A stretch of 64,000 nt of DNA from positions 1-64,000 of the forward strand of contig NZ_BATR01000146.1 in NCBI RefSeq assembly GCF_000739655.1. The letters run 5' to 3'. The notes under the pieces are model-generated. The model did no database searches. It was given only the letters and a program-made list of their open reading frames with translations, and was not told the origin of the DNA. Origin of the DNA: Verrucomicrobium sp. BvORR106 (GTDB taxonomy: Bacteria > Verrucomicrobiota > Verrucomicrobiia > Verrucomicrobiales > Verrucomicrobiaceae). Positions 8,020-58,951 of the stretch are shown here, in pieces (position 1 is the stretch's first letter; each line of letters opens with the position of its first letter). The translations under genes were made by a program, and so were the position numbers.

Positions 8020-9852
8020 ATGCCAAAAATCCAACCCCGCTGGCTTCGTGATTTGATCCGCTTTCTCCCACTGCGGAGCCAGTTTGTGCTCTCTGGGAAT
8101 GTGCGGGACCTGTACCCGGTGGAACTGCAGCCGGGGCTGGTGGCACCGTTACCGCTGGTTTCCTGCCTGGGCATGGAGTTGCAGCGGGAGGGCATGGCGC
8201 ATTTCCTGACCTACGATCCCGCCCAAGGCTTCTCGGTGCCGATGATCCCCGGCCTGGATCCGCTGGCAGAGCGGGAGTTCTTTGCGAAGCTCCTGGGCCT
8301 CACCTGGGCGGAGAATGGCCGCGCAGCCGCCACGCCGGAGCGCTTCTTTGACCTGCTGGAGGTCATCGTGCGGCATCCCGGGGAGCCCATCGTACTCTTT
8401 GCCGATTTCGCCTCGCGCCTGCTCATTCGGGCTGACTTGCCCTCCGAGGCGGAGCAGCGCGGCTTCACCCGGGCGCTGGTGCTCTCTCATCAGATCCTGC
8501 CTCGACCGCTGGGCCCGGAGGGCAGGCCGTTCTTCAACCCCGTGGTCTGGATCGTGGACAAGGAGGGCGACCTCCCAGACTGGTTCCTCCTGGGGAATCC
8601 GAAGATGCGGCACATCCCAGTGCCGACACCCGATCACTCGGTGCGCCGTCTGGTGGTGGAGAATCTGGCGAACACGCTGCGGGGCGATCTGGCCGCCGAC
8701 CAGGTACCGCGGATGGTGAATCTCTTTGTGGAATCGACCGAGGGCCTCTGGGTCAGTGACCTGGTGGGTATTGCCCAGCTCTGCCGGGGCGAGGGGCTCA
8801 CGCTCGCAGACATCGGGGAAGGCGTGCGACGCTACAAGCTGGGCGTCACCGAGGACCCGTGGAAGCGGGTGAACCGTGAAAAACTCAGCCAGGCCGGCGA
8901 GTTGATCCACCGCCGGGTCAAAGGGCAGGCCCACGCCGTGACTCACATGTTGGATCTGGTGAAGCGGGCCGTGTCCGGCCTGGGGGCCAAGGAAGGCGGC
9001 GGCGGACGCCCCCGCGGGGTCGCCTTCCTGGCCGGGCCCACCGGCGTGGGCAAGACGGAGCTGGCCAAGACGATCACCGAGCTGCTCTTCGGCGATGAGT
9101 CTGCCTGCATCCGCTTTGATATGAGCGAGTTCTCCGCCGAGCACAGTGACCAGCGGCTGATCGGCGCACCGCCCGGCTACGTGGGCTATGATGTGGGTGG
9201 CGAGCTGACCAATGCCGTACGGCAGAAGCCCTTCAGCGTGGTCCTGTTCGATGAAATAGAAAAAGCCCACCCCCGCATCCTGGACAAGTTCCTCCAGGTG
9301 CTGGACGACGGCGTCCTGACCTCCGGGCGCGGAGAGCGGGTGTACTTCTCAGAGGCATTTCTAGTATTCACCTCGAACCTGGGCATCTACCGTCTGGACG
9401 CCCACGGCGAGCGGGTGCCCAATGTCCTGCCGGACGAACCCTATGAGACCGTCCAGGCCAAGGTGAAGGAGGAGATCGCCCGGCACTTCAAGCTCACCCT
9501 GGGACGCCCCGAGATCCTGAACCGCCTGGGGGAGAACATCATGGTCTTCGACTTCGTCCGCGACGAGGTGGCGGTGGAGATCTTTGATTCCATGCTCGAT
9601 GGGCTGACTCTAAAGGCTCAGCAATCCCAGGGCGTAAGCGTCACGATCACCAGCGAGGCCAGAGCAGCCTTGCAGGCCCTGTGCCTGGGGGATCTCTCCA
9701 ACGGCGGTCGCGGCATTCGCAATCAACTGGAGGTGCACTTCGTGAATCCCCTTGCCCGCCTCTTGTTTGATGAAAACGTGCCCGCGGGTGCCGCCCTGCG
9801 CATCACGGGATTGCAACGCGGTGCAGCGACGACCCTGCAAGCCACGTTCTAA
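8020..9852 (+). CDS. AAA+ ATPase with ClpB/ClpA D2-type module
   Basis: A 610-residue, probably hexameric, ATP-driven protein remodeller; no peptidase partner is nearby. The C-terminal half is a clear Hsp100 D2 domain: Walker A GPTGVGKTELAKT near residue 338, FDMSEFSAEHSDQRLIG, pore loop PPGYVGYDVGG, Walker B VVLFDEIEKAH, sensor VFTSNLG, then a D2 small domain. The N-terminal 280 residues look like a degenerate AAA domain with a Walker-B-like IVLFADFASRLL and VVWIVDKEGD but no Walker A. It lacks the ClpB N-domain and coiled-coil arm. First gene of a plus-strand cluster; the radical SAM gene follows after 18 bases. The role is unknown; I infer a chaperone or motor within a multi-protein system. 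Confidence 0.85.
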   Translation: MPKIQPRWLRDLIRFLPLRSQFVLSGNVRDLYPVELQPGLVAPLPLVSCLGMELQREGMAHFLTYDPAQGFSVPMIPGLDPLAEREFFAKLLGLTWAENGRAAATPERFFDLLEVIVRHPGEPIVLFADFASRLLIRADLPSEAEQRGFTRALVLSHQILPRPLGPEGRPFFNPVVWIVDKEGDLPDWFLLGNPKMRHIPVPTPDHSVRRLVVENLANTLRGDLAADQVPRMVNLFVESTEGLWVSDLVGIAQLCRGEGLTLADIGEGVRRYKLGVTEDPWKRVNREKLSQAGELIHRRVKGQAHAVTHMLDLVKRAVSGLGAKEGGGGRPRGVAFLAGPTGVGKTELAKTITELLFGDESACIRFDMSEFSAEHSDQRLIGAPPGYVGYDVGGELTNAVRQKPFSVVLFDEIEKAHPRILDKFLQVLDDGVLTSGRGERVYFSEAFLVFTSNLGIYRLDAHGERVPNVLPDEPYETVQAKVKEEIARHFKLTLGRPEILNRLGENIMVFDFVRDEVAVEIFDSMLDGLTLKAQQSQGVSVTITSEARAALQALCLGDLSNGGRGIRNQLEVHFVNPLARLLFDENVPAGAALRITGLQRGAATTLQATF

Positions 9853-9870: not shown

Positions 9871-10548
9871 ATGCGCCTCTTCCTCAGCCGTCTGCACTTC
9901 CCCGTGACCACGCTCGGTCCCGGGTGCCGCGTGGGCATCTGGTTCCAGGGCTGCAGCCTGCACTGCCCGGGCTGCATCAGTGTGGATACCTGGGCGCACG
10001 GGCAGGGCGAGACCACGGTGGCGGAGGTCATGCGCACGGTCGCGCCCTGGCTGACCGAGGCCGATGGCATCACTCTCTCTGGAGGCGAACACTTTGAGCA
10101 GGTGGACGCCCTGCAGGCCCTGCTGGAGGCCCTGCGCCGCGAGATCGGCCCGGGCAAGGACATCCTTATCTACTCCGGCCAGCCCTGGGAAAAGATCGCC
10201 CCTCACCTCAGCAACTGGCCCGGCCTGGCAGACGCCGTCATCAGTGATCCCTTCATCCGCTCAGCCCCGCAGACGCTGGCATGGCGGGGTTCAGACAATC
10301 AACGCCTGCACCTGCTCTCCCCCTTGGGCCACGAGCGCTACACCGCGTGGCAGCATGCCCTCCGCGACGCCCTGCCGAAGGCCCTGGATGTGTGTTTTGA
10401 AGGGGACACCCTCTGGATGGCCGGCATCCCCGACCCCGGCAGCCTCGCGCTGATCCAGCGCACGCTGGCAGAGGCAGGCTACGCCTCCACCGCTACCGAC
10501 GGGAGCCTCGAAGGCCCCTCCTCCATTTCCGTTCCTGTATTCGCATGA
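9871..10548 (+). CDS. Radical SAM protein, NrdG-like 4Fe-4S single-cluster activase
   Basis: 225 residues. A CxxxCxxC cluster motif (GCSLHCPGC, about residues 30-38) sits in the context typical of NrdG/PflA-type activases (GPGCRVGIWFQGCSLHCPGC and later TLSGGEHFEQ and DILIYSG). Such proteins cleave S-adenosylmethionine to make a 5'-deoxyadenosyl radical. There is no anaerobic ribonucleotide reductase or other glycyl-radical enzyme in the window to serve as partner, so the substrate is unknown; it may be a partner protein in this cluster. Its stop overlaps the next gene's start by 4 bases (ATGA), implying translational coupling. Confidence 0.85.
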   Translation: MRLFLSRLHFPVTTLGPGCRVGIWFQGCSLHCPGCISVDTWAHGQGETTVAEVMRTVAPWLTEADGITLSGGEHFEQVDALQALLEALRREIGPGKDILIYSGQPWEKIAPHLSNWPGLADAVISDPFIRSAPQTLAWRGSDNQRLHLLSPLGHERYTAWQHALRDALPKALDVCFEGDTLWMAGIPDPGSLALIQRTLAEAGYASTATDGSLEGPSSISVPVFA

Positions 10549-17007: not shown

Positions 17008-18354
17008 ATGAGCGGCCCCAAAGTCATCAATATCGAAGCCATCCGACGCCGTCAGAAGCGTGAAAGTCTGGCCCTGCTCCAGCGGCTCGAGCTCGCTCTC
17101 GCCGATTGCGATCGCTGGCAGCCGACGGAGTCCCAGACCTCCAGCGTGATGGACCGCCTCCGCCAGATGCAGGAGGCGGGACAATGGGAGCCTCTTATCC
17201 AGGAAGCGGGCAAACAGTGCAGCTTCTATGAGGAAGAGGCCCGTCGGCTGCGCCAGCTTCAGGTCACTGATCGGACGGCCAGCCTGCGTCGTGAGCATCG
17301 CCTCCAGCAGGGCCTGGCCCAGATGATCGCTCAGCTGCAACCCCTGCCCGTCACCCCAGAGCGGGACCGCATTCTTGGGCAACTCCGCAATGCGGATCCT
17401 GCGGCGCAGCAGAGCGCCTTGGGCGAGGCGTTGGACTTCATCGGACAGCACCAGCAGCATGAAAGCTCCAGCCGACTGCGCGAGCTCGCCGCCGGCCTCA
17501 TGGATCCCGATGCCGATTCATCGAACTCGCCCCTTCCCCAGCTTCCCGCCGATCCCCAGGAGCTGCGTTTGGAAAAATGCTGGGCCCTCCTTGCCGAGCT
17601 CTCCGCCGTGGCGGACTCCGCGGACTCCCCCGAACTTCAAGACCTGACCGAAAAGGCCCGGCGTACCGCCGCCGCTCCTGCGGACCAGCAGGCGTTACTC
17701 CTCGATTCCCTGGCGCTGGAGCTGTCCTCCTACCTGCAAAACCGCCGGGCCGCCCTCGCCCTCCGCCAGGATCTGGCCCTGCTGCTCGCCGAGCTGGAGG
17801 AACTCCACTCGCCTGCCGTCGCCGACTGGAAGCAGCGCCTCACCGCCGCACTCGCCCTGTCAGCCTCCCCTCTGGGGGCCACCCGCGCCCTCGTTCAAGA
17901 AGCCCGGGCCTGGGTAGACCAGACCTTTGCCGAGGAAACCCGCCAGGAGCAACGCGCCGCCGTCCTCCGCGCCCTCAGCGCTGCCGGTTATGAAGTGCGC
18001 GAAGGCATGAGCGCCGCCTGGGTGGAACAGGGCCGCATCGTCCTCCGCAAGCCCGGCGACGCCGCCTACGGCGTGGAACTCAGCGCCCCCGCGCAAGGCA
18101 ACGCGGTCCAATCCCGCGTCGTCGCCTTTAATGCCTCCGGCCGCGATCCCCTCCGCGACCGCGAAGTCGAGGAAACCTGGTGCAGCGAGTTCGAAAAAGC
18201 CCGCGATGTGCTGAGCGACGAAGGCTTCCAGGCAAGTTTAGTGCAGGCCCACCCAGCGGGAGCGATCCCGCTGAAGGCGGTGCCGAACCCGGCGGGTGAA
18301 CAAGGACGGGACGTGCCGCGAAGAGAGGGATTGGGCGGTGCGGCCAGGGGGTGA
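17008..18354 (+). CDS. Helical/coiled-coil protein of the kinase-helicase cluster
   Basis: 448 residues, no family recognised. It starts MSGPKVINIEAIRRRQKRE and is very rich in Ala, Leu, Gln, Glu and Arg, predicted almost wholly helical to about residue 320, with no signal peptide or membrane segment. The last third changes character (AAGYEVREGMSAAWVEQGRIVL, SGRDPLRDREVEETWC) and looks like a small alpha/beta domain. The position, last in a four-gene cluster in one direction, suggests an adaptor or structural partner of the AAA+ or kinase-helicase protein. Two degenerate pieces of this gene occur at 28946-29052 (5' end) and 52843-53016 (3' end), so the system, or at least this gene, has existed in more than one copy. 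Confidence 0.8.
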   Translation: MSGPKVINIEAIRRRQKRESLALLQRLELALADCDRWQPTESQTSSVMDRLRQMQEAGQWEPLIQEAGKQCSFYEEEARRLRQLQVTDRTASLRREHRLQQGLAQMIAQLQPLPVTPERDRILGQLRNADPAAQQSALGEALDFIGQHQQHESSSRLRELAAGLMDPDADSSNSPLPQLPADPQELRLEKCWALLAELSAVADSADSPELQDLTEKARRTAAAPADQQALLLDSLALELSSYLQNRRAALALRQDLALLLAELEELHSPAVADWKQRLTAALALSASPLGATRALVQEARAWVDQTFAEETRQEQRAAVLRALSAAGYEVREGMSAAWVEQGRIVLRKPGDAAYGVELSAPAQGNAVQSRVVAFNASGRDPLRDREVEETWCSEFEKARDVLSDEGFQASLVQAHPAGAIPLKAVPNPAGEQGRDVPRREGLGGAARG

Positions 18355-28639: not shown

Positions 28640-28851
28640 TCAGAGTGTGGGTGCGGAATCGGATTTCACCGTCGAAGAAGAAGCCATCGCCACCTGAGCA
28701 CTGCGGGGCATCAAATGGTTTGCCCGCCTGCTTGCTCTCAGCCACGGCCTGCTGATCGCCGAGGAGAATGGGAAGACCTTGGGCATGACCCACGAACACA
28801 TCGCCGAAACCTTCCGTAAATTCGGCCTCATGGCCGTGCGGCTCGGGCAAG
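28640..28851 (+). pseudogene. Decayed coding fragment, unrecognised
   Basis: Right after the SDR, one frame reads as plausible protein (SVGAESDFTVEEEAIAT, stop, ALRGIKWFARLLALSHG, LLIAEENGKTLGMTHEH, IAETFRKFGLMAVRLGQG) with an in-frame TGA and no start, and then runs into the 71-bp repeat. It looks like the tail of a helical domain from a lost gene. Family not identified. Confidence 0.35.
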
Positions 28852-28922
28852 GTAAAAGAACCGCCCCGGTTCTTGTTCCCCACATCACACAGCACCCCAA
28901 AGAGCCGGGACGGCTCTTCTAT
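28852..28922 (+). repeat. Single 71-bp double-hairpin repeat
   Basis: Arms GTAAAAGAACCGCCCCGGTT and AGAGCCGGGACGGCTCTTCTAT. Same length and structure as the copies in the 52212-52576 array, and followed by the same spacer type (tctctcaacgcggcgcccgc). The relic of the helical gene begins 24 bases later. Confidence 0.85.
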
Positions 28923-28945
28923 TCTCTCAACGCGGCGCCCGCCGG

Positions 28946-29052
28946 ACATCGAAGCTATCCGACGCCGTAGCGTAATGGACCACCTCCGCCAGATGCAGGA
29001 GGCGGGACTATGAAAGCTACTCATCCATGAAGCGGGCAAACAGTGCAGCTTG
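28946..29052 (+). pseudogene. 5'-end relic of the helical gene at 17008
   Basis: The stretch matches that gene from its codons for IEAIRRR, then skips about 90 bases and continues through VMDRLRQMQEAG and EAGKQCS (e.g. cctccgccagatgcaggagg in both). The missing part lies between two copies of agcgtga in the intact gene (about 17060 and 17143), as expected for deletion by microhomology. Stop codons interrupt it. No other gene of the cluster is recognisable next to it. Bases 29053-29209 show nothing further. Confidence 0.85.
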
Positions 29053-42885: not shown

Positions 42886-42981
42886 TTTTTGGTGGAAAGG
42901 TGAAAATAATGGGGAGCACGGCAGCGGCACTCACGTCAGGAGGGCCAAAAGGGAGATCATCGACCTCGCCAGCTTTTCCCG

Positions 42982-43138: not shown

Positions 43139-43198
43139 AATCGACATCGTGCCCAAGACGTGCTTCACCTCCCCTGAATGACCCCGGGCCTACAGCCC

Positions 43199-44068
43199 TC
43201 AACGACGGCGGCGCAGCAGGCAGCAACCCAGGGCCACGCCGAGGAGGAGAGCCCGGGAGGGTTCGGGGACGACATCGCCCTGAATCTGAAGACTGTCGAG
43301 ACGGAGGCTGCCGTTGGTCGTTGAGTACACGCCTACGGTGAACGTGATCGGGGTGCTGACGTTCATCAGATCGGCAGAGTAGGCGCTAAGGTCAAAGGAG
43401 TAGAGATTGGAGGAGGATGGCGCGGTGTTGTTGTTCACCACGGCACCCGTGGTGTCGTAGGCCTTGGTCGTGGTGCCAAGGATGGTGCTGCCTGTCGCGC
43501 TGCTTTGCACAAAATAGGTATAGCTGCCTGTCGAGTTGGTTTGATTCCCCCAGGCGTAGAAGCTGATCTCGGTCAAGTTAAGGGCGTAGCCGCTCTCAGG
43601 GGTCAACGTGACGGAGAAGAAGTCGCTGGCAGTGATCGCGGCGGCGGGCGATGCTGTCGCTGCCGCGGCTGAAGGAAAGACATACGGATTGCTGCCACCA
43701 ACACCCATGACGCCGTTGTAGGCTGGCAAAGTAGCTGTGCCGACACTACTAATCGTTCCTGCTCCGCCGTTGGTTCTCAAGCCCGAACCCACGCTGAGGC
43801 TTGATACAGCCAGGTGGGGCACGGCACCTGCGGCATTCGAATAGGTGCTTCCAGCATAGGGTCCAGCCCCCTGAGCCGTATTCAGGAAATTTAGCTCCGC
43901 CGCATTATTGAAATCCCACAGTCCAAGGGTCACCGCAGACTGCGCCGGTATTACAAGACACGCCAGAACCAGCAACGTCAGGCAGAAGGAGCCATTGCCC
44001 TTCATTCCACCGGAGAATCGTGATGTGGCCGGTCTGGCCGTTTTCAAGGTCGCAAAAGATAGTTTCAT
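43199..44068 (-). CDS. PEP-CTERM protein
   Basis: 289 residues: N-terminal signal helix (FCLTLLVLACLVIPAQSA), Ser/Gly/Thr-rich beta-sandwich-like exported region, and VPEPSRALLLGVALGCCLL followed by RRRR. ATG 44005 (MKGNGSF) is an alternative start that gives a more ordinary signal peptide. Stands alone; the 212 bases to the next gene (44069-44280) contain no strong feature. Confidence 0.86.
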   Translation of the reverse strand: MKLSFATLKTARPATSRFSGGMKGNGSFCLTLLVLACLVIPAQSAVTLGLWDFNNAAELNFLNTAQGAGPYAGSTYSNAAGAVPHLAVSSLSVGSGLRTNGGAGTISSVGTATLPAYNGVMGVGGSNPYVFPSAAAATASPAAAITASDFFSVTLTPESGYALNLTEISFYAWGNQTNSTGSYTYFVQSSATGSTILGTTTKAYDTTGAVVNNNTAPSSSNLYSFDLSAYSADLMNVSTPITFTVGVYSTTNGSLRLDSLQIQGDVVPEPSRALLLGVALGCCLLRRRR

Positions 44069-44280
44069 AGGACGCTTTGGAGTGGAAGCACTGCTTGATA
44101 TTGATCAAGATCATGGCAAAACCACCCCACCCCGTCTCCCTCTCATCATGCACCATTTGGGGACACCTGGTCCCTTGACAAAATCCATTGCCGTAATTTC
44201 CCGGCATTTCTCATCGCCTCGGATGGCATGCCCAAGTGCTCGATAGGTCCGGATAACTGTCCGCAAGGACGAGCTCGGGA

Positions 44281-44904
44281 TCAGACTCTCACAATCCCAC
44301 GCCGGATGGCTTCCGCAGTGGCCTGCGCGCGGTCATGCACACCGAGTTTCTCGAGGATGTGGCTTACATGGCGTTTCACCGTGTCTTCGGAGATGGCAAA
44401 CAATGCGGCGATCTGTTTGTTCGCGTGTCCTTTCGCGATCAGTTCCAGGATCTCCCGCTCACGCATGGAGATCCCGACGCACAGGCGCAGATCCGCCAGA
44501 CGTTGCGCCAGTTCAGGCGGAAGATAACTCCCACCCGCGGCCACCCGCCGCAGCGCCGTCAGCAGCTCGTCGCGAGACGCAGTTTTCTGCAGGTAGCCCG
44601 CCGCCCCGGCATCCAGCGCCATCTGCACCTCGTCATCGTGGGCAAAGGTGGAGTAAACCAGGATGCGGGCCTGTGGATCATGAGCCCGCAGTACGGCTGT
44701 GGCCTGCACGCCGGTGATCCCAGGCAGTTGCAGATCCATCAGTACCACACCAGGCCGCCGGAGCTGGTACACCTCCAGTGCGTCTTCTCCACGCTTCGCT
44801 TCGCCGACGACTTTGACGTCGCTCTCAACCTCGAGCGCCGCGGCCAGACCGCTCCGCACGACGAAATGATCATCGACAATGAGAACCGTCAGCGGAGTGG
44901 TCAT
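44281..44904 (-). CDS. NarL/FixJ-type response regulator
   Basis: 207 residues. Receiver domain with the acidic pair VLIVDDHFVVRSG, phosphoacceptor Asp in GVVLMDLQLPG, and Lys in GYLQKTASRDEL; a C-terminal LuxR helix-turn-helix (REILELIAKGHANKQIAALF, EDTVKRHVSHILEKLGVHDR). I start it at 44904 (MTTPLTVLIVDD), overlapping the kinase stop by 4 bases. Confidence 0.93.
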   Translation of the reverse strand: MTTPLTVLIVDDHFVVRSGLAAALEVESDVKVVGEAKRGEDALEVYQLRRPGVVLMDLQLPGITGVQATAVLRAHDPQARILVYSTFAHDDEVQMALDAGAAGYLQKTASRDELLTALRRVAAGGSYLPPELAQRLADLRLCVGISMREREILELIAKGHANKQIAALFAISEDTVKRHVSHILEKLGVHDRAQATAEAIRRGIVRV

Positions 44905-46997: not shown

Positions 46998-47013
46998 TCA
47001 GGCACTCTACACA

Positions 47014-48309
47014 TCAACCGAACAGCGAGGCAATAGGTTTGCCTTCATCCGTGATGGGGATGGGGCGCGAACCGTCCATCAGCGCCCGATGGGGATTGAT
47101 GCCCATGGCCGCGTGAATCGTCGCGTGAAAATCCGGGATCGACACTGGATTCTCCGCGATGTTTTTCGAAAGCTCATCCGTCACGCCATAGGCGCCGCAG
47201 TGTTTCAATCCGCCCCCCGCCAGCACCATGCTGAAGGTCGTGCCCTGATGTCCACGCCCACCTCGTCCGTCGAACTCCGGAGGGCGGCCAAACTCTGTGG
47301 CCATCACGACCAGGGTCTTGTCGAGCAGCTTCTTCTCCTCCAGATCCAGGAGCAAGGCAGAGACGGCAGTGTCCAGATCACGGATGAGCGTGTGCTGATT
47401 GATCTGTCCTTCGTTGTGCGTGTCCCAGCCAGTGCCGTTGATGAAATTCAGATTTTGCGACACCTCGATGAAGCGCACCCCTGCCTGTACCAGCCGCCGC
47501 GCCAGCAGGCAGCGCTGGCCAAACTCGCCGCCGTACTGCTGCCGCAGGGTGCCGGGCTCTTCATCGAGCTTGAAGTGCCGCATGAAGCCTGGTCCCGCCA
47601 GCCGCAAGGCTTCACGTTGCGCCTCTTCGTATTCCCCGGCCATCGTGCCCTCCGGCGCTTTTTCCAGCAACGGTTTCAGCAAGGCCTGCCGCCGCGCGGT
47701 GCGATCCATGTTCACCCATTCAGGGCGCGTGAATCCCGCCGGTCCAGACTCCGTGTCCGTGAGATAGACATAGCCATGGCGCGCCCCGAGAAAGCCCGGG
47801 CCCCGGCTCACACTGGGAAATCCCATGAGCATGTAGGCAGGCACGTCCGGATCGGCCGCGCCACGTTGCTGGGCCACGATGGAACCGATGGAAGGATAGA
47901 TCACCGTGCCGCTGATCATCCGGCCGGTATGGACCAGGTTGGTGGCGAAGGCGTGCTCATCCACGACATGATGATTGACCGTACGCACCACCGTCATCCG
48001 CTCCGCCATACGCGCGAGCTGGGGGAGATGCTCGGTGAACTGCACGCCGGGCACGGAGGTATCGATCACTGCGTAATCCGAGCCCGCTACTTTTGGCGAC
48101 GCCTTGGGGTTGCCACGACGTTTGGGATCAAAGGTATCAACCTGCGCCATGCCGCCGCCCAGCCAGATAAAGATGCAGTGTTCCGCTTTGCCCACAGGCA
48201 TCGGCGCGGCCGCCTTCATCAGGCCCGGCAACAAGGGAGCGGCCGCGAACGCGGCGCTTTGCTGTAGAAAAAGGCGACGGCTGAGGTGGCGGGTTGAGGT
48301 GATATTCAT
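47014..48309 (-). CDS. DUF1501 protein
   Basis: 431 residues from ATG 48309 ([17 protein letters not shown]); the twin-arginine signal [18 protein letters not shown] predicts Tat export. Sulfatase-like segments [39 protein letters not shown] and [14 protein letters not shown]. Second DUF1501 of the window, in an operon with the PSD1 protein upstream and the two-component pair downstream. Confidence 0.9.
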
Positions 48310-48353
48310 GATCGAGGGGGGAAGGAGTAAAAGAGAGAGAGTGTGTGTCTGCA

Positions 48354-51300
48354 TCAAGGGGCGGTGATCCAGCCCGGCGCATTGATCAATGCCCACACCA
48401 CATCTTCCAGGCGGCCCCGCCAGTCAGCCTCCAAGCGTGAGGTAGGCGCATCGCCACGGCGGGCCAGCTCGGCGTGCTTCTCTCGCAGCACATTCGCTGC
48501 GGCATCCACGTGGTTCGACCAACTAACATATTTCTCACGCACGCGAGGTAACGGGGTTGATCTGGGAAGTTTTTCCACGGGCACAATGCGTTCCGCATAA
48601 CCTGCCGTGAGCAGAGAGACATAGAGGGTGCGCTCTTCCGCCGAAGGCTTCCGGGTGAGCAATCGCAGAAAGAGCCGCTCCACCAGCGCATCCACCGGTT
48701 GATCTTCCATCGCCAGTTGCGTGAGTGCATGATCATCACTGAGCCGCGTCAGCCAGCCCCCCACGGTGCCGTTCGAGATGATCGCAGGTTGCAACACATT
48801 GGGGGCGGTCTCCCGCTTGCTGACCGGGTCCACGCGAGCTCCACGCCAGCCAAAGATCTCCAAGACATCTGCCACCGCTTGAATGCGCGGCAGCATCAGG
48901 CTTGGGCGGTCACGCTCATTGGAAGTAGAGGCCAGCATCCAGGCGCGGCGCGGCTTGCCCAGCGCCAGTGCGAAATCAGCTCGACGGTCGCCATCAACGT
49001 CCAGGCTCATCTCCTCCAGCGCAAAGGGCTTGCCCGTGGCGGTGAACAGGGAATCAACGATCTGCTCTGCCGCCAGTCGGCGTGGCGCGGGCGAGACAAA
49101 GAGAGGCTCCTGGCCGGCCAGCATGGGATCCACCTGCCGCTGGTAGGCATGCGAGTTCAGGATGAGACGCTGGATCGCCTTGGCGCTATAGCCAGAGCGC
49201 ACAAACTCACGCGACAACCACTCCAGCAGCTCGGGATGCGACGGTCTCCCCTTCTCCCAGTCCTCGACCGGTTCCACGATGCCGCGCCCCATGAGCTGCT
49301 GCCAGAAGCGGTTCACCACCACCTGGGCGAAGCGGGTGTTCTGCGGCGCGGTGAGCAGTGCTGCGAGCCGGTCGCGCGAATCATCCGGCTTCATCGCCAG
49401 CGAGGCCGCCGCGCTCTCGGAACTCATCTGGCCCAGCGGCCACTTGGGCTCCACCGTGCTGCCCGGTTTGAGCGTGACTTTGATGAGCGGTTCACGCCCA
49501 CTCTGATGAATCCTGTCCAGCGGCACACTGCTCGTCTCTGGCAGTTTGATCGGCTTCCTCCCCATCATCGCCGCCAGCTCGAAAAGATCCTGCTGTTTGG
49601 TCAGGTTGGCCGGGGAATCGTGGCACCGGGCACACTTCATCTCCACCCCCAGAAAGGCGCTGCTCACGATCATCGCCTTCTGCGCCATCGGCACATCATT
49701 TTGCGATGCCATGCCGAACCCCGCTGGTCCGCCAAAGAGTCGGCTGCCTTCCATGCGGATCAGTTCCGTCACGAACAGGTCCATCGGCTTGTCATCCAGC
49801 AGCGACTCGTAGATCCACCAGCGGAACGGCCCCGTGTTGTTCAGCGTAGGGTTCAGGAGATTAGGATTCTCCGCCAGCACATCCTGCCAGTAGCCCATCC
49901 AGCGGTCCGCCCAGCGAGGGTCCGCCAGCAGACGGTCGATCACCTTCGCACGCCGGTCCGGCGACGCATCCGCGGAGAAATCACGAATCTCCTCCTCACT
50001 CGGCACCAGGCCCACCGTATCGAGCGTCACGCGACGGAGAAACGTCAAATCGTCGACAAGCGGCGTCATCTTCAGTGTGGAAAAGCGCAAGTCCGGCCAG
50101 TGCGCTCCTTCGGCAATCCAGCGCTCCAGGGTTGCCAGCTCCGCACGATTGAGCGGCTCACCTTTGCCTTCCGGCGGCATGATTTCGTCCGGATCCGCTG
50201 TCGCACGGATGAACAAGGCACTCTCCGCAGGCTTGCCTGGCACGATGGCTGGGCCGTCGGATTTGCCGCCCTTCAGCGCGGCCGTCAGTGTGTCCAGTCC
50301 CAGCTTGCCTTTGGCACTGCCACCCTGATGGCAGCTGTAGCACTTGGCCTCCAAGATCGGCTGCACATCGCGGTAGTAATCCACCCCGTCAGCCGGTGTG
50401 GCGGAGCGATCCTCCGCGATCCCAGCGATGCGTGCCGCTAGGAACCGATCAATCGTATTGTGCACGGGAAACCCCGGTGGCAGATCCGGCACCGGCACCT
50501 CCGGCGTGGCGGCCAGCCACTTTGTCGCAGCATCTCGTCGTGCCTTCCAGTAGGGTGCATGCTCGTGGCGTCGCGCCGCGCGCGCCTCCGCATTCACCTT
50601 CACGAAGTGGGCACTCCGCTCCGCCTCGTACGCCGCCCAGCCCGCATCGGTGTAGGGTACCTGCCGCGAACCTGGGGACAGCAGCGACCACGTCGTCTCT
50701 CCCTCTGGACAAACCGCCGCCACCGTCTCCCCCAACTCCGGCCGGAAGGGATTGCTGGCGGAGCCACCGCCCACCACGGTCTCCAACACCACAAGGTGCT
50801 CTTCCCCATCGCCAGTGAAGGTGCCCGTCACCTCGCTGTTCCCCGGCGGCGCAAAGCGGAAATCGGGGCCAAGCTCCAGATAGCGGTCCTGATCTGTCAG
50901 GGGGGCGTAGCCTGCCCGATCGCGCTGCGGGAAAGGCGTCTTCAACACCTCCTGGCCGTCGATGAACAACCGCGCGGCACCCAGCCCGCGGAGCAGCAGC
51001 CGGTTTTTGCCCTTCGGCAGCCGCACCATCGCTGAAGCACGCAGCATAAAGGTCGCCGCGCGATCCCCGCGCACGCCGGTCGCCACATAGTGTTGCGGCA
51101 GCTCGGAGAAGCCGAATACCTCCTCGATATACGACTCCGTCGCGACGGGCGATTCCGCAGGCCACATGGGCTTCTGGGGAACGCCTTTCTCGCACAGCTC
51201 CACCAGCACTCGCCCGCCCGGCAGCTTGCTGCGATCGATCTCTGGAGCCGGTGCTGGAGCCACCACGAAGCGCGTTTTCAAGGTGGCCGCAGACAGCGCG

Positions 51301-52100
51301 GTGCGATGGATGGCCACCTCGTCCAGCCAGCCATCCAGCGTCTCCGCCGTGCCGCGCGTGTATCCGGTGCCAATGACCAGCGTATCGCCATCGTGCACCG
51401 GCCCCGCATCGGTCGCACCCCCCAGATCCCAGGCGCCCTTGATCTCCACGCCATCGATGTAGCCCCGCAGGCTGTCTTTTTTGCCAAACGTGTAAGTCAC
51501 CGCGAGGTGATGCCATCCGGTGTCGGTCTGAAAGGTCACGTTGCTCCACCAGCGGTGCCACTTGGCCGCCTGCCCATCCGCCGCGGCACTGGTGAAAATA
51601 AACCCAATCGCCGCACTCCCCTGCCCGCCTCTCAGCCGCAGTCCGTAGTTTTGGTTGTTGTCGCCAAACTCTTTGGTTCCATTGCGCCCTTTGCCCATGA
51701 GATGCACGATCTGTCCGTCGCGGATCTTGCGCACCTTCACCCACATCTCGATCGTGATGGAGTTGCCCTTTTGAAAACGCAGCTCCGGCATATCCGGCAC
51801 CACCAGCGCCGCGTCCTGCCCGGCCAGCTCCATCGCATGGTTTCCTGCCGCAAACGTCGGATACCCCGGCCCCTGCGGGCCCGGCACCTGGCGAGAGCCC
51901 TTCCCCTGCCACACGCCCAGCGCATCCCCGCCCTCGAATCTCCACTGGGCCACGGGCGATTGTGCTTCTGACTCTGCTTTTGCTTCTGCTTTTGGATCTG
52001 CGGAATGGGCGATGCTGGTGGAGAGCAGGGCCAACACCGCGCATCCCAGCCAACCTGGAACAGAGAGGAACAGCAGAGCAAATCGAGAGCGCATGGGCAT
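48354..52100 (-). CDS. Large LamG/PSCyt1/DUF1549/DUF1553 protein
   Basis: About 1248 residues (start 52100 or 52094). Signal peptide ([17 protein letters not shown]), an N-terminal concanavalin/LamG domain ([32 protein letters not shown]), an intermediate beta domain ([19 protein letters not shown]), a cytochrome-like domain with [14 protein letters not shown], then DUF1549 (second CxxCH in [14 protein letters not shown]) and DUF1553 ([17 protein letters not shown]). The LamG domain is at the N-terminus here, but at the C-terminus in the paralog at 38882. First gene of a four-gene operon; probably an exported redox protein acting on polymers, by inference. Confidence 0.9.
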
Positions 52101-52211
52101 AGAGAGGGAAATTTCGTTGCCGATTCTATGCGTGCGGAAGGAGCACCGCACCGCAGGTGCCATCACACGATCGTGCGCGAAAAGAGCGCCGGGGTCCGTT
52201 CAGCCGCCACA

Positions 52212-52603
52212 GTAGAAGAACCGTCTCGGTTCTTGTTCCCCAAATCACCCAGCACCCCCAACAGCCGAGACAGCTCTTCTACTCTCCCAACACAGCGCCC
52301 GCCGCCAATGTAGAAGAACCGTCTCGGTTCTTGTTCCCCTAATCACCCAGCGCCCCCAAGAGCCGGGACGGCTCTTCTACTCTCCCAACGCAGCGCCCGC
52401 CGCCAAGGTAGAAGAACCGTCTCGGTTCTTGTCCCCCGCATCACCCAGCGCCCCCAAGAGCCGAGACGACTCTTCTACATTCTCAACGCAGCGCCTGCCG
52501 CCAACGTAGAACAACCGTCTCGGTTCTTGTTCCCCCCAATCACCCAGCACCCCAAGAGCCGGGACGGCTCTTCTACCATCCCAACGCCGCGCCTGCCGGG
52601 AAG
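52212..52603 (+). repeat. Tandem array of four 98-bp double-hairpin units
   Basis: Four 71-bp copies at 52212-52282, 52310-52380, 52408-52478 and 52506-52576, each followed by a conserved 27-base spacer (tctcccaacgcagcgcccgc type): the period is exactly 98 bp throughout. Each copy has two palindromes with 3-base loops (AAGAACCG-tct-CGGTTCTT and AAGAGCCG-gga-CGGCTCTT) whose arms can also pair with one another, giving two alternative folds. Not CRISPR: spacers are nearly identical. The companion module (cgcctgccgggaagctc) follows copy 4 at about 52590. The stretch 52101-52211 has no gene. Confidence 0.9.
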
Positions 52604-52842
52604 CTCAAAGGAGGCAGGGGTTCTCAGCCCCGCAGGTGAGCGGAGCGCATCCTGGCGGCTGTATACTATGACCCACTGACCGCTGCCAATCACGGCCAGT
52701 CGAAAAGATGGCTCTGGCCTGAAGGACACAGAGAGTCCAGCCAATGGGCCAATGGCCGCGAAGTGAACGGAGAACCTGGGTACGGACGACCCCGCGAGTG
52801 ACTGCATGAAGGACCGCGAGAGACATCCGCCAGTCCGGCGTT

Positions 52843-53016
52843 CCCGCCCAAGGCAACGCCGTCCAGCCCCATATCGTCGCCTTCACTACCTCCAGCCGCG
52901 ATCACCTCCGCGACCGAAAAGGCGAAAAAAGACAATGCGGCGGCATCCAAAAACCTCGCGGTGTCGTGACTGGCGAAGGATTCCAAGCCGCCTTGAAGCA
53001 AGCACATCCGGCTGAA
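52843..53016 (+). pseudogene. 3'-end relic of the helical gene at 17008
   Basis: Reads QGNAVQ, HIVAFTTSSRDHLRDR and, in a slightly shifted part, TGEGFQAALKQAHPAE, against QGNAVQSRVVAFNASGRDPLRDR and SDEGFQASLVQAHPAG in the intact protein. Small indels and lost codons make it non-coding. It starts about 240 bases after the hairpin array. Together with the 5' relic at 28946 it may represent one gene split by rearrangement, or two separate decayed copies. Confidence 0.85.
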
Positions 53017-53377
53017 TGCGATGGCTCGACCGACATCTGCCACCGGTAGCTTGTGCGGGATCAGTGATAGTATGACCCGGCTAGACTCGGGATGAAGAGG
53101 CAATCAGAATAACTCCCAAGCCATCCAGTCCCCCCCTAACTGAAAACGAGCCCCCCAAATCCCACCCAGTTCACAATAGGCAAACTTGGTCGTTCGCGCT
53201 CTCAGACATCATTCTGAAGCACACAATTTTCCCCTATGCAACCATTCGATAGGAGCCTAGTATTTCTAAACTCAGCAAGATCCGACAGCACACTTCCACC
53301 CACGTGTCAAAATCGCCTTCACGCGCCAACGCACAAATGCTCCAAGTGTCCTCACCTCCAGCGCCGCCATCAAATAA
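53017..53377. other. A/T-richer boundary region of the Argonaute island
   Basis: 361 bases without a supported gene. Base composition changes visibly from GC-rich to A/T-richer from about 53100 and stays so to about 58050. The Argonaute promoter should lie here; no clear -35/-10 pair found. Confidence 0.4.
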
Positions 53378-55714
53378 ATGAGAAATTTACATCTGAACAT
53401 CTTACCTGTCGATCTTCCTGATGTCGAAATCTGCGTAGGGGTCCGACCCTTTGACTCTGGGGATGGGATGCGTGAATTGCGGAAGGCACACGTCGGAACA
53501 CACATCTTCAAAAGAGTGACCGTTGACGAGTATGGCAAAAAGCTAGATTTGATCTACGCTGTGCAGCTAGACGGTAAGGACTGTACTGTTCTAGACGAAA
53601 CAAAGACAATTCGATTACACGAAAACTTGGGCATAGCACGCCAACTAGTGAATGAGAGCTTCCTCGCTGGTTTCGCACGAAGGAAAGAGAGGCAAATTGT
53701 GGACATAGAGCCATTAAAAGTGGTTTCCTCAGAAGAAGAGCACAACTTTATTTCTCAGGCAGTCAAAGGCGCTAAAGTTCCCGAATGGTTGGTCGTAAGG
53801 CTGGCACACACAATAGATGCCCGTGTTTTTCATTTTGACGGAAGGCCTCCATTCCTCGGACTGGTGCTTGATCATCACACGCACCGTCGAATGGCGAGAC
53901 GATGTTCGGAATGGCTGGCTGATGGACTTGACCTAGCTGGGCTTTATGTATCTGAAAAGGTTCCCTTCCACGACACTAGGATTGAACCGCGTGCTCGTCT
54001 GGTAGGGCGTGTATCTTCGATCAGCGGTAGCACACTGCACCTGACAGACTGTCGCGAGGGTCGCGACACAGTAGAAGCGAGAGACGTTGAGGTTGAAGCT
54101 GACTATGAGGGCTTTTTGCGATGTCTAAACGCCACTTTCAATGGCAGGGGAACAAGTATAGACAAGGCATTGTTCAAATTGCAATCAGAGGCTCAAGTTG
54201 GCCCCAAAAAGCTAAGCGAACTTAGACGCATCGAAAACCGTCTCATTTCCAAACCACTCCGACTGCTTCCGGGGATTGATGCACATGTGATTCCACACCT
54301 TGACACAAACGGGAAGCGCTTCCCAGGCGTTCATAGATCGTCACAACCGCTCTACGTATTCGACCGAACTTTCAACAAGCCCGCACTAAACGACGCCAAG
54401 CGTGGAATTTCCGAACTCGGGCCATATAGCCGGCAAGGATTCACACCCTCGACCCCGAGATTCTGCGTGATATGTGAACGCAGTCGCAAAGGCGAAGTAG
54501 AACAGTTTCTACGGAAGTTTTTTGAAGGCAACAACGAGCCGGGAAGAAGATGTTTCTTTCCGAACGGATTCATCAAAACATACGGACTGCAAGGGAAGGT
54601 AATCCGCTTCTTTCTTGCTGAAAACGCATCTGCCACGGCTTATCGAAGTGCTGCTCAGGATGCATTAACCGCGGTCACAACAGAGGCGGAACGTTGGCAT
54701 TTGGCGTTCGTACAGGTAAATGAAGCAAGTCACAACCTTCGGGGGGACAACAACCCTTACTTGGTCACAAAAGCGGCTTTTCTTTCACAGCAGATACCCA
54801 CTCAGGAGTTCATGATTGAAACCACGCGTCGAAAAGGGACGGGGCTTGACTTCATACTGAGCAACATAGCACTTGCAAGCTATGCCAAACTCGGCGGAAC
54901 ACCATGGCATCTAAAAGTAAATAATCCCATGGCACACGAGTTGGTTGTTGGGCTTGGCAGCGCCTCAATCAGCGACTCAAGGCTTGGCTCTCGACAACGC
55001 ATGGTTGGCATCACAACGTTGTTCACAAGTGAAGGACGTTACTTACTCGGCAACATGTCCAATGCCGTCCCGTTTGAAGAGTACGGAAAGGCAGTTGTGC
55101 AGATGCTTACGAGCGCCATTGAACGTGCACAAACTGATATGAACTGGCAGAGGGGCGACGAAGTGCGGCTCATATTCCATGCGTTCAAGCCTCTTAAGGA
55201 CACTGAAGCTGAGGCAGTAAAGGCAGTCACAGAAAGTTTGAGCGGTTACAATGTTGAATTTGCCTTCCTTCATGTTTCCCAGGATCACGATATCGTATTG
55301 TACGACACCGACAATCAAGGAGTTAAAGCCTTCGGCGCGGGATTCTCGAATGTAAAGGAAATGATGAAAGGTGAGTTCGCGCCAACGAGGGGAGCATATC
55401 TCACCCTCAACAGATCCAGCGCTATCCTATCGCTCACGGGGGCAAAGGAGGTAAAGAAGCCTACCGACGGATTACCCTATCCGGCACTGCTCCACCTCCA
55501 TCGAAGCTCCACATTCACAGACATGAAATATCTCGCAGAGCAGGTCTACACGTTTGCATCTCATTCGTGGAAAAGCTTCGACATGTCCGGAATGCCGGTA
55601 ACAATTGGCTATTCACATCTTATAGCGCGACTCCTTGGTAGGCTCGGAGGATTGCCGCACTTCAGTGTGGATTCAATACATGGGAGACTTAACCGGCTGA
55701 GATGGTTTCTATGA
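53378..55714 (+). CDS. Long-B prokaryotic Argonaute, predicted catalytically inactive
   Basis: 778 residues. The C-terminal half is a MID-PIWI module in the style of long-B pAgos: GTGLDFILSNIALASYAKLG, TPWHLKV, HELVVGLGSASISD, RLIFHAFKPLKD, PYPALLHLHRSSTFTDMKYL, VTIGYSHLIARLLGRL. The DEDX tetrad is broken: the first Asp (usually in VG-D-x-S) is Gly in VVGLGSA and the later Asp site reads HAF, so guide-directed target binding without cutting is expected. Sequence before about residue 250 is not assigned to a named domain. Codon use and base composition are lower in GC than neighbours, suggesting transfer. The patatin-like gene overlaps its stop by 4 bases (ATGA), the arrangement expected of a sensor-effector pair. 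Confidence 0.87.
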   Translation: MRNLHLNILPVDLPDVEICVGVRPFDSGDGMRELRKAHVGTHIFKRVTVDEYGKKLDLIYAVQLDGKDCTVLDETKTIRLHENLGIARQLVNESFLAGFARRKERQIVDIEPLKVVSSEEEHNFISQAVKGAKVPEWLVVRLAHTIDARVFHFDGRPPFLGLVLDHHTHRRMARRCSEWLADGLDLAGLYVSEKVPFHDTRIEPRARLVGRVSSISGSTLHLTDCREGRDTVEARDVEVEADYEGFLRCLNATFNGRGTSIDKALFKLQSEAQVGPKKLSELRRIENRLISKPLRLLPGIDAHVIPHLDTNGKRFPGVHRSSQPLYVFDRTFNKPALNDAKRGISELGPYSRQGFTPSTPRFCVICERSRKGEVEQFLRKFFEGNNEPGRRCFFPNGFIKTYGLQGKVIRFFLAENASATAYRSAAQDALTAVTTEAERWHLAFVQVNEASHNLRGDNNPYLVTKAAFLSQQIPTQEFMIETTRRKGTGLDFILSNIALASYAKLGGTPWHLKVNNPMAHELVVGLGSASISDSRLGSRQRMVGITTLFTSEGRYLLGNMSNAVPFEEYGKAVVQMLTSAIERAQTDMNWQRGDEVRLIFHAFKPLKDTEAEAVKAVTESLSGYNVEFAFLHVSQDHDIVLYDTDNQGVKAFGAGFSNVKEMMKGEFAPTRGAYLTLNRSSAILSLTGAKEVKKPTDGLPYPALLHLHRSSTFTDMKYLAEQVYTFASHSWKSFDMSGMPVTIGYSHLIARLLGRLGGLPHFSVDSIHGRLNRLRWFL

Positions 55715-57669
55715 ATAAGAACGATCTAAAAGCAGTCTTTGACGCTCGCGATGTCCTACTGAAGACTGCTCTTGCTGAAGCAGGGCAAAATCCATTGGCA
55801 GCAGCATTCCTCGGTTGGCTTCTCCGGAGTGCCAACACTCTTCATATGCTAGAGGAGGCAGCAACGCGAGCTGCCGCAGCTAAGGGTGCAGACCGTAATT
55901 CTCGCAACGTTGCAGTACTAGGATTTGCATGTGGAGTGGACTCATTGAAAAGCCGCTTTGCGCCCAGCTTTAAAGCACAACTTGAGTGGTCTACTGGTAG
56001 ACCAAACATTTCAACTGTGGGCGAACCGTCCGGAGTTGTCGCGGACCCTCTCAGTTTTACCGGGATTATTGTCGGTGTGGACGGTATTCTTAACGAAGTG
56101 GAGCGTCACCAGATAGCAAACTGGTCTCGCTCAGTTTGGACGGATTCCAACGTATTGTTCTCGGATGGGGGATGGAGGCGAGGCTTGCTTGAGACGCTTG
56201 GATTTCGACTAACTATCTTGGACGTAGTCGGCAACAATTCAAATCACCCCGAGTGGCTTACCGCAGCGTTGATCCGTCGAGGATGGAGTCTACCTTTCGA
56301 AAAGTCCGCCACAGAAGTATTGGATCGGGCGTTAGAGGAATCGACTAGAGTTGCAGATGCCTTCGAAGCCGGGCTACGAGTAGCCGCAATTGAATGGGCC
56401 GTCTCACGCTACGAGCGTCCGATTACCCTTGTCCTGTCGGGCGGAGGGCTTCGGGCAACACTATTCCAACTTGGGGTAGTGGCATATTTGGTTCACATGA
56501 ATGACCTTGGAAGGGTCGGTGGCTTGGTGTCGGTTTCAGGAGGTAGCATACTTGCCGCGCACTTAGCCTCTCGATGGAGGGACGCAATAGAAAGCCTGCA
56601 GTCGTTCGTCACGGTGGCGGCTGATCTTGTGCGCTTCGCGCGTTCCGACATACGTCACAATATAGTTGTCCCTTGGATTTGGTCGCGCCTAAATCCCCTG
56701 GCATGGTTTCGAGAATCAGCGTCACTTAGCGGCAGGTTGCGTTCTGCATTTAACGTGCATTTTTCGAAAACTCGATTGGGCGATTTGAACCAGCCTGGAT
56801 TCCCACAAGTCGCTTTCGTGGCAACGGATGCCGTAAGGCTTGAGCGCATTGCATTCACAGCAGGTAAAGTCGCGAGATTTCCAGTTTCCCCGGACGCCAT
56901 AGAAAGTGGACACACTACACACATAGTAGCCGACAGCACAGGAGTACCTCTATCGCTTGCAGTCGCAACTTCTGCTTGTTTTCCGCCTGTTTTCCCTAGG
57001 ATGAAGCTCACTCATCGCGACTTTGGACTTCGCTATGATGAGTTCAAGGATGAACTTTCACTCAACGATGGGGGCGTTATCGGAAATCTTGGTATTGAGG
57101 TGTTGCTAAGCCTTCGCGATGCGGGATGGAGCCTTGCCGACGAAGTCTTGGTCGTCGATGCAGAACGCCCACAAGGCAAAAAGCCGGGAACAGGGCCGGC
57201 AACAGACGTGGGCGCTCAAGGAGCTGCGCTTAGTCGGGCAGCAGTGGACCTCGCCAAACAGCGACTGGGAGCGGACTTGCGTATCATCAGCTTTTCGAAA
57301 CGACAGCCTACTCCACCGGAGTTGGCGTTTACTACACAGACGCCACTTGCTTCGTTTCGAACTGATTTGGATGCCCCAAATTGGCGAGAATGCCAAGCTC
57401 TAATGCTTCACGGCTTTGCGGCAGCTACTGTAGCTCTCGGCAAGCCAGTCGAACACACTGAAACCGCCAAAGCAGGAGAAAAGATTGTATCGTCCATACT
57501 AGAAGGTGCAGGTGCCCCCCAATTGCATGGCACACCCACGGACATTGACCTTGAGAAGTCGCAGCAGCGGCCGATGGCCCGGGTGATAATTCATGGACTA
57601 TTGGTGCTCTGCATCGCCATCGTCGTGTGTTTTTTGGTGTATCGCATCTACGTTAAAACACTTTGGTAA
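55711..57669 (+). CDS. Patatin-like phospholipase with C-terminal membrane anchor
   Basis: 652 residues from ATG 55711. N-terminal 230 residues unassigned, helical; then a patatin fold: oxyanion loop LVLSGGGLRATLFQLG near 242, nucleophile elbow VSVSGGSILAAH near 274 (Ser where the first Gly of GxSxG usually is, closer to GVSGGS of cPLA2-like enzymes), and catalytic Asp in LNDGGVIG near 450. A single membrane helix closes the protein (LLVLCIAIVVCFLVYRIYV). Predicted to hydrolyse membrane lipids. Co-translation with an inactive Argonaute suggests a toxic effector released when the Argonaute detects invading nucleic acid; inference. Confidence 0.85.
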   Translation: MNKNDLKAVFDARDVLLKTALAEAGQNPLAAAFLGWLLRSANTLHMLEEAATRAAAAKGADRNSRNVAVLGFACGVDSLKSRFAPSFKAQLEWSTGRPNISTVGEPSGVVADPLSFTGIIVGVDGILNEVERHQIANWSRSVWTDSNVLFSDGGWRRGLLETLGFRLTILDVVGNNSNHPEWLTAALIRRGWSLPFEKSATEVLDRALEESTRVADAFEAGLRVAAIEWAVSRYERPITLVLSGGGLRATLFQLGVVAYLVHMNDLGRVGGLVSVSGGSILAAHLASRWRDAIESLQSFVTVAADLVRFARSDIRHNIVVPWIWSRLNPLAWFRESASLSGRLRSAFNVHFSKTRLGDLNQPGFPQVAFVATDAVRLERIAFTAGKVARFPVSPDAIESGHTTHIVADSTGVPLSLAVATSACFPPVFPRMKLTHRDFGLRYDEFKDELSLNDGGVIGNLGIEVLLSLRDAGWSLADEVLVVDAERPQGKKPGTGPATDVGAQGAALSRAAVDLAKQRLGADLRIISFSKRQPTPPELAFTTQTPLASFRTDLDAPNWRECQALMLHGFAAATVALGKPVEHTETAKAGEKIVSSILEGAGAPQLHGTPTDIDLEKSQQRPMARVIIHGLLVLCIAIVVCFLVYRIYVKTLW

Positions 57670-58045
57670 ACTTGATGATGTTCCGACAAATTTGGAAGGC
57701 GTGTTACGTTATCACCATGAAAAACGTTCCACACCCAAGGAGTTGCCACGAGCGGTGGGACAGCAGTTAGATATTATCGTTGAGAAAATAGAAGCAGAAG
57801 GCAGATCCAAGAGTTATCACGATGCACTTGCACTCATAGCCGCATCCTATTAACTAGATGGTGACTTGTTGCAGAACTTTCTTGAGCAGCGCGCAAACGT
57901 GGTCGGCAACGATTCTAAGATTCCGATGAATCAAAGAGTTTCTGCGCTCAGGGCGGCGGGACTAGAAACAGTTCCAATGCCATCGAACTGGCCTCAGCGT
58001 AGAAATTTCGACTCAGAATACGCGCATCTTATCGAACATCCTTAA
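57670..58045 (+). pseudogene. Interrupted small ORF after the patatin gene
   Basis: One frame reads FGKLDDVPTNLEGVLRYHHE, KELPRAVGQQLDIIVEKIEA, LALIAASY, TAA stop (57851-57853), then immediately LDGDLLQNFLEQRANVV and RRNFDSEYAHLIEHP to a stop at 58043. The two halves share a frame and look like one protein of about 125 residues with a premature stop. No good ATG start; it overlaps or abuts the patatin end. May be a third system component that has decayed, or a readthrough or split gene. Function unknown. Confidence 0.4.
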
Positions 58046-58222
58046 ACATTGGCCCAACCTCTATCACCCGCTGGATCCAGCCTCCACGCATCGAATCAAG
58101 GAGGGTCAGGTGTCCGACTTCGGCATGAACTCCGACCCCACCCCTGACTTTGGCGGGCGGGTCATTCCGGTCGCCGACTTCAAAAAGGAAGTTCAGGCAC
58201 TGCTGCCAAAGCAAAAATAGGC
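58046..58222 (+). pseudogene. C-terminal fragment of an unrecognised protein
   Basis: Open frame without start: HWPNLYHPLDPASTHRI, KEGQVSDFGMNSDPTP, GGRVIPVADFKKEVQALLP, KQK, stop TAG. Composition is host-like GC-rich, unlike the preceding island. It looks like the tail of a normal gene cut off at the island edge, which would mark the right boundary of the Argonaute island near 58046. Confidence 0.4.
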
Positions 58223-58951
58223 GAGACAGAGGAAGGGAGGCCATGCCAGCAGCAGGCGAGGAGATGAGCCGGTGCCAACGCACACCTCTCCCCTCCCCGC
58301 CCCAACCCTCTGCGGCTGATGGAGCCCCCTGAGAAGCCCGGGGAGCGCCCGCATCCTGCGGGCTGTTCGCGGCATCTTGCCGCGAACGTCAGTCAGTTCG
58401 CGACGTCGCATCCAAATGACGTGGAGGTGTTGAAGGCGATGGGGAAGAAGCGGATGCTGTCGGCCTTCCCACCTGATCATCTGCTGCGGCAGTACCCAAC
58501 GTTAACTCGCTTAGGGCTCGTCCAACGTTGGGCTGTGTTAGAGATCCCCGCTGGGGATCAGCTTCCGATGGAGGCGGGCACCTCCAGGTGGTTCCTGGGC
58601 GGCCACCCCAAATGCGTGGCAGACGCTGCAGCCAGTGCCTCCTCACGTCGACAACTACAGGGGCGCTGGGAAGATTGGCGATCAAACACCAGTGGGTGGG
58701 AGGAGAGGCGTGAGCTATCGGCGCGCGTGCGGATACCGTAGCTGTTTGAGAATGCCTTCTGCCATGGGGCCAACAACACCGGTCGTAGTTGTCGACGTGA
58801 GGAGGCACTAACTTCCCGGTCTGCGATGTTTCCTCGTGGAGATCAGCCAAGAGCCCAAGGGCTACTCCTTGACCGCGAGGCGAAGCAGCATCTTCCCCCC
58901 AGACATCCCCTTCCCCTTCCTCTTAAGGAGCACAAGACATGGCTGCTGGCC
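58223..58951. other. Gene-poor region with palindromes
   Basis: 730 bases with a 9-bp inverted repeat CCCAACGTT/AACGTTGGG at 58495-58532 and the larger element at 58635-58808. A 140-codon ORF crosses the region but spans the repeats and has no family, so I do not call it. Confidence 0.45.
58635..58808. repeat. 174-bp element with perfect 24-bp inverted arms
   Basis: GTGCCTCCTCACGTCGACAA through 58658 is the exact reverse complement of 58785-58808. The 126-base interior has no coding sense. Same architecture as 72-224 and 42982-43138. Confidence 0.85.

Follow-up and report, generated by a model that had tools for sequence, protein, structure and literature searches.

The window analysed here is the first 64,000 nt of contig C64, an 86.6-kb contig of the genome under study (G000; other genomes carry handles of the same form). 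In its right part lies a prokaryotic Argonaute gene, and adjoining it a 180-base stretch related to a gene for a helical protein, of which an intact copy, called the parent gene below, is found about 35 kb away in the same window. A second fragment of the same gene, from its other end, lies between the two (Table 1). We refer to the fragments as the 3′ relic and the 5′ relic.

Table 1. Coordinates of the features of the 64,000-nt window treated in the text.
Feature	Position	Strand	Basis or remark
ClpB-type AAA+ ATPase, operon partner	8020..9852	+	Profile matches
Radical SAM activase-like protein, operon partner	9871..10548	+	Profile matches
Protein kinase + DUF4011 + SF1 helicase + MTES_1575 nuclease, 2103 aa	10545..16856	+	Profile matches, including PADLOC
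Parent helical gene, intact, 448 aa, starts MSGPKVI	17008..18354	+	Homology search; AlphaFold2 model
Hairpin unit abutting the 5′ relic	28848..28945	+	
5′ relic of the helical gene, codons 9-15 and 46-73, with TGA	28948..29051	+	Homology; also in G001
Array of four 98-bp hairpin units, each a GTAG-ended palindrome pair (REP dimer)	52203..52600	+	Left flank of the hot spot
Resident left flank, from hairpin array to 3′ relic	52601..52828		Common with G001 to 52828, with G003 to about 52772
Variable hot-spot content	52829..58050		G001 and G003 have other content between these flanks
3′ relic, decayed fragment	52837..53016	+	Matches codons 359-418 of the helical gene
Prokaryotic Argonaute, Piwi domain	53378..55714	+	PADLOC pAgo_II
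Argonaute-associated gene, Aga_Helical-REase N-terminus, then patatin-like phospholipase domain	55702..57669	+	Aga_Helical-REase E 2e-14, part of the profile
Right edge with 3′ remnant of a resident gene	58051..58310	+	Gene intact in G001 and G003 (187 aa in G003)

In a search of the whole 8.69-Mb genome, the DNA of the 3′ relic at 52843-52988 matched the intact gene at 17008-18354 with 75% identity (E 4.4e-20); a second DNA comparison gave 71% over 175 nt, and 52843-53022 is 74% identical to the G001 orthologue. The translation of 52837-53016 is 57% identical to residues 359-418 of the parent protein (E 3.0e-14), in an alignment of 60 codons without gaps or stops. Judged by these comparisons the homology is far beyond chance, and an earlier note that had read the 3′ end of the helical gene at 52843-53016 was borne out, its bounds holding within a few bases. 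What is left amounts to 60 of 448 codons, most of the gene being absent. In the AlphaFold2 model of the parent protein (mean pLDDT 75.8, seven aligned sequences), long helices run to about residue 325 and an alpha/beta domain spans about 337-425, of which the 3′ relic covers only a part. Searched against Pfam, PADLOC and NCBIfam, the parent protein gave no match at E ≤ 0.01, and a comparison of its model with the PDB returned nothing at E ≤ 0.001 (145 entries at E ≤ 10). A PDB sequence search brought up three weak chains of the ribosomal-protein-L35 type (E 0.017-0.046), which we take as chance.

The parent gene is the last of a row of four, in the order ClpB-type AAA+ ATPase, radical SAM protein, kinase-DUF4011-helicase-nuclease protein and helical protein. 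The large third protein matches the PADLOC profiles PDC-S37 (1e-148), Hhe (3e-66) and MkoA (3e-54) and the NCBIfam profile antiphage_ProA (4e-148), with scores far below the NCBIfam cut-offs (495 vs 1500 bits, and 328 vs 2000 for Hhe). The PADLOC matches point to a role in defence. Whereas the large protein is thus comparable to Hhe, PDC-S37, Mokosh MkoA and antiphage_ProA, the three partner genes are additional here. Conflict systems with AAA+ and radical SAM parts have been described (PMC7159879); in the portion of that paper covered here no system matching the four-gene row was seen, and a search of the open-access literature did not find the operon as a described system. The operon at 8020-18354 looks like an undescribed or poorly described defence system. 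The row recurs in unchanged order in G004 and G104, G001 holds the whole region, and contigs of G022 and G117 carry the kinase-helicase end together with the helical gene. In G004 it lies near genes for a phage-type integrase, a DUF3987 protein, an HNH protein and an Avs4-like protein. The distribution of the helical gene is patchy, with matches in 6 of 142 relatives at E ≤ 0.001 and in 8 of 384 genomes of the class at E ≤ 1e-8, the own genome included in both counts; in five of these eight the matches are weak and mostly partial (about 29-33% identity).

Several minor features surround the operon. A tandem heptamer repeat (AAACTTC) occupies 16858-16906, between the kinase-helicase gene and the helical gene, and similar stretches occur elsewhere in G001 and G003. 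A tRNA-Ser (cga) at 6067-6157 and a 95% identical copy at 18377-18470 bracket 12.3 kb, ARAGORN reporting only the first of them, and G001 holds 17.6 kb more at the same tRNA-Ser. Between the helical gene and the second tRNA-Ser copy, contig C119 of G001 (L035 4110-5210, minus strand) also has about 1.1 kb that is absent from the window and that, by reading alone, looks like an antitoxin gene with a putative zeta-type toxin gene.

The surroundings of the 3′ relic were compared with those in G001 and in G003, a one-contig genome. The window and G001 are collinear from 6152 to 52828, interrupted by smaller gaps and by extra sequence in G001, about 1.1 kb of it following the helical gene and 3.2 kb at 24.2 kb; within this range 24206-42973 aligns in a straight line at 96% and 43193-52500 at 95%. 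In G003 the segment from 6158 to about 43190 is missing, after which collinearity resumes and extends to 52772. The common right flank resumes at 58051 in the window, where the resident gene is truncated; G001 and G003 have that gene whole, and in them the flank begins about 395 bp earlier. Between these same flanks the three genomes hold three different contents. G001 has ShosT/ShosA-like and BstA-like genes (ShosA 9e-89, ShosT 8e-12, BstA 2e-120), and G003 encodes a protein of 1378 aa whose Pfam matches are Mrr-like (Mrr_cat) and, below threshold, nSTAND, and which has no PADLOC match. The cargo is thus defence in two of the three genomes (pAgo_II in the window; ShosA, ShosT and BstA in G001), and 52829-58050 is a small immune-cargo hot spot. 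It resembles the core defence hot spots cDHS1 and cDHS2 of Pseudomonas aeruginosa, as presented in the part of PMC10250203 covered here, in that varied immune systems sit between conserved flanks; it differs from them in being bounded by a hairpin array on one side and by a resident gene with no Pfam match on the other, in a comparison of three genomes. G014 has the gene left of the hot spot, but in the 18 kb beyond it neither the 43-64 kb part of the window nor any of nine selected proteins found a match. G002 gave no match in the hot-spot comparison, no stretch of viral contigs matched the search patterns, and no genome was found with an intact helical-gene copy in the hot spot.

About 10 bp separate the left edge of this hot spot from the start of the 3′ relic, the homology to G001 ending at 52828 and the relic beginning at about 52837, and it is the first recognisable sequence of the hot spot from the left. 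Neither neighbour has it: in G001 the relic DNA matches the intact gene only, and in G003 only a 27-bp stretch overlaps (E 0.003). An interspersed intergenic repeat at 52713-52822 ends at the hot-spot edge; a 75% copy of it occurs at C159:41964-42074, and shorter copies are found in G001.

The left flank of the hot spot includes the hairpin array. As read from 52212-52282 and its copies, the 98-bp unit consists of paired palindromes with GTAG at the outer ends, and related units stand at the same place as the 52203-52600 array in G001 and G003. In their GTAG outer ends, pairing and tandem grouping, the hairpins of the window resemble the GTAG-tagged REP dimers of PMC3733652; that paper, in the part covered here, describes GTAG-tagged REPs as GTAG-ended palindromes that occur paired and in tandem groups, and lists them from the superphylum with Verrucomicrobia. 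The own genome has 18 matches to the Y1_Tnp transposase family (PF01797), and these genes are candidates for the enzyme that moves the GTAG hairpins. Hairpin matches in the own genome number at least 59, 17 of them on the 86.6-kb contig, with opposite-arm matches counted and the total a lower bound, as the first look scored 40 of 83 candidates. The hairpin is enriched on this contig.

The earlier note had both relics following a 71-bp hairpin. This holds for the 5′ relic, which abuts a unit, but not for the 3′ relic, which begins about 240 bp past the end of the array. About 230 bp of that gap (52601-52828) is resident sequence, which is found in G001 as well, and to about 52772 in G003, with no relic after it in either. 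With gene limits chosen by us from the list of open reading frames, 15% of the intergenic bases of the window lie within 250 bp downstream of one of its five hairpin clusters and 1.9% within 30 bp. The closeness of the 3′ relic to a hairpin is therefore not unusual for intergenic sequence, whereas the abutting 5′ relic is closer than most. Given the resident sequence in between and the 15% background share, the hairpin is not supported as a landing site of the 3′ relic.

The pattern of substitutions suggests that the 3′ relic is a dead, non-functional gene fragment. Its private substitutions amount to 0.208/0.208/0.225 per site at codon positions 1/2/3 (60 codons; references G000 and G004), with a mean of 0.214 (bootstrap 0.156-0.281), all private branch lengths being uncorrected distances. 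With G022 or G104 as the outgroup the means were 0.172 and 0.203, again even across codon positions. In contrast, the identical formula gave 0.067/0.042/0.383 for the functional G004 gene (references G000 and G022). Because its private substitutions are spread evenly over the codon positions, the 3′ relic would have decayed without constraint. Of 13 residues invariant over seven intact homologues it retains 7 and has lost 6. At codon positions 1 and 2 that are invariant in five functional genes, it differs at 15 of 83 sites, against 5 of 88 to 10 of 93 for single functional genes in a similar test; by this measure alone the contrast between relic and functional genes is modest. The classical marks of a pseudogene, stop codons or indels, are absent from the 60 aligned codons; they are common in pseudogenes but not needed for so short a piece. 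Homology, loss of the start and most of the gene, and relaxed constraint are all found, and the fragment presumably does nothing now. A role as a functional RNA was dismissed, since Rfam at the gathering threshold gave tRNA only over the whole window.

As to its kinship, the 3′ relic joins the G000 and G001 genes in an HKY+G tree, apart from those of G004, G104 and G022 (bootstrap 82 of 100), on a long branch (0.38). At the 45 sites that distinguish G004 from G000 and G001, these two being identical there, the relic has the G000/G001 base at 30 and the G004 base at 5. The G022 gene matches the first 88 bp of the relic with 78% identity (E 1e-13). Sites at which G000/G001 stand apart from all three outgroup genes at once number only 7; the relic sides with G000/G001 at 3 of them and with the outgroup genes at 2, which leaves its exact kin uncertain. 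A source within this genus is favoured by these data, but not proved.

The 5′ relic consists of two pieces (28948-28968 and 28969-29051), the second with 89% identity, and is found at the collinear place in G001 (C119:30222-30317). The relics do lie about 24 kb apart and represent opposite ends of the gene, as had been noted; "complementary" goes too far, as much more than half of the gene is in neither (codons 9-15 and 46-73 against 359-418). The private branch of the 5′ relic is 0.080 per site (CI 0.025-0.142, 27 codons) vs 0.214 (0.156-0.281, 60 codons) for the 3′ relic, which showed no excess of private substitutions over the 5′ relic in only 0.18% of bootstrap draws (0.0018). Gene conversion by the intact gene could lower the value of the 5′ relic.

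That both relics stem from one gene copy split between hairpin repeats, as the earlier note suggested, would account for opposite ends of one gene on the same strand with hairpin repeats upstream of each. But the rearrangement between the two sites that this calls for is not seen, G001 being collinear over 24.2-52.8 kb, with no inversion spanning 28.9-52.9 kb; moreover, G001 shares the 5′ relic and not the 3′ relic, the two halves have decayed to different degrees, the middle of the gene is in neither, and resident sequence separates the 3′ relic from the array. We regard such a split as very improbable. The other suggestion of that note, that the gene repeatedly lands in repeat-rich, defence-prone sites, survives in part. 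The 3′ relic does lie at the margin of a hot spot that carries different cargo in each of the three genomes compared, recognisably defence in two, and the parent operon is patchily distributed and has an integrase nearby in G004, but a specific link of the 3′ relic to the hairpin is not supported. If the helical gene or its DNA moved alone and was repeatedly dropped at repeat-rich sites, one would understand why this gene of 1.35 kb is the source of both relics while its three operon partners, 8.8 kb in all, have left none, and why the 5′ relic abuts a hairpin. Against this, the helical gene follows the kinase-helicase gene in all five other genomes in which its context was seen (G001, G004, G104, G022 and G117; five further genomes with weaker matches were left out), and only two relics are known. 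Independent movement of the gene therefore seems improbable to us, less so than the split copy.

A stronger contender is that the 3′ relic arrived with the Argonaute cassette, from a donor that had the cassette downstream of the operon, and never belonged to an earlier occupant of this site. The relic lies wholly within the segment that varies between genomes and is not found in G001 or G003, and in G082 (L081) the nuclease-domain end of the large operon protein has a weak match (32% over 63 residues, E 8e-6) some 7.5 kb upstream of an Argonaute gene. However, Argonautes of this kind occur in 5 of 189 genomes, the own genome included, and at the four other loci (46, 46, 34 and 27% identity) no credible copy of the helical gene was found in the stretches fetched, the only relic match being at chance level (E 0.055, G057, L082). 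Furthermore, the GC content changes after the 3′ relic and not before it, and the relic leans to the genes of this genus. We consider joint arrival rather unlikely overall. Far less likely still, indeed barely credible, is a function of the stretch as a short gene or as a leader that regulates the Argonaute gene. The frame around the 3′ relic is open for 79 codons, which would suit such a role. Yet no in-frame start codon precedes the match, the only GTG or TTG codons of the open frame (52966 and 52993) lying within it, the fragment is a part of the alpha/beta domain with the first strands cut off, and its substitutions are even over the codon positions.

On balance, the 3′ relic is probably the leftover of a second copy of the helical gene, the torn edge of an earlier occupant of the defence hot spot. 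On this reading, a related copy of the gene would once have stood here in the + orientation, probably with its operon, and most of it was later removed, leaving a break that is visible as a junction at about codon 359, the timing of which we infer. The remainder would then have decayed without constraint, as the codon pattern suggests, and the AT-richer cassette of Argonaute and patatin-domain genes came to occupy the space to the right, where its far edge truncates the resident gene. In G001 and G003 the relic would either have been replaced by other immune cargo or never have been there. The drop in GC content, from about 0.62-0.64 to 0.50, is placed at 53060 (support 52870-53208, two ranges tested), beyond the 3′ relic; in G001 and G003 the corresponding drop comes within 22 bp of the end of homology. 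This change point fits a relic older than the Argonaute cassette, although the high GC of the relic is no proof that it preceded the cassette, because the parent gene is itself GC-rich (0.67).

Fragments of the other three operon genes (8.8 kb) were not found in the own genome at E ≤ 1e-5, and a whole operon copy at the hot spot is for that reason put forward with caution; three extra matches to the ATPase-domain part of the first gene (within 1005-1292 of the query) look like Clp-type paralogues. With two relics, it may be chance that both come from the helical gene. An effect of the operon edge would explain the 3′ relic, not the 5′ relic. We hold it possible, tentatively and at somewhat less than even confidence, that the four-gene defence system once held the hot spot and was displaced, its intact copy surviving in the tRNA-side island about 35 kb away. 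The 3′ relic itself is a product of ordinary decay; its use is as a marker, evidence that the cargo of an immune hot spot has turned over. It ties the patchy four-gene operon to a site that now carries Argonaute, ShosTA/BstA or an Mrr/STAND protein in three close genomes. This tie strengthens the argument that the operon serves in defence, and it shows cargo being replaced at one address. If the former-tenant reading is true, torn edges of this sort would make it possible to work out in which order immune systems followed one another at one site.

The present cargo deserves comment as well. The Argonaute gene overlaps its patatin-domain partner gene (53378-57669). The locus resembles the Long-B Argonaute systems with toxic effectors (PMC10620215) in that the associated gene adjoins the Argonaute gene, a class likeness by gene context. 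The effectors named for Long-B Argonautes in the part of that paper covered here are of the nuclease, Sir2 and membrane types, and the patatin-domain partner is unlike them, the words "patatin" and "lipase" being absent from the text of the paper. A lipase-type Argonaute partner could be an effector variant that has gone unreported.
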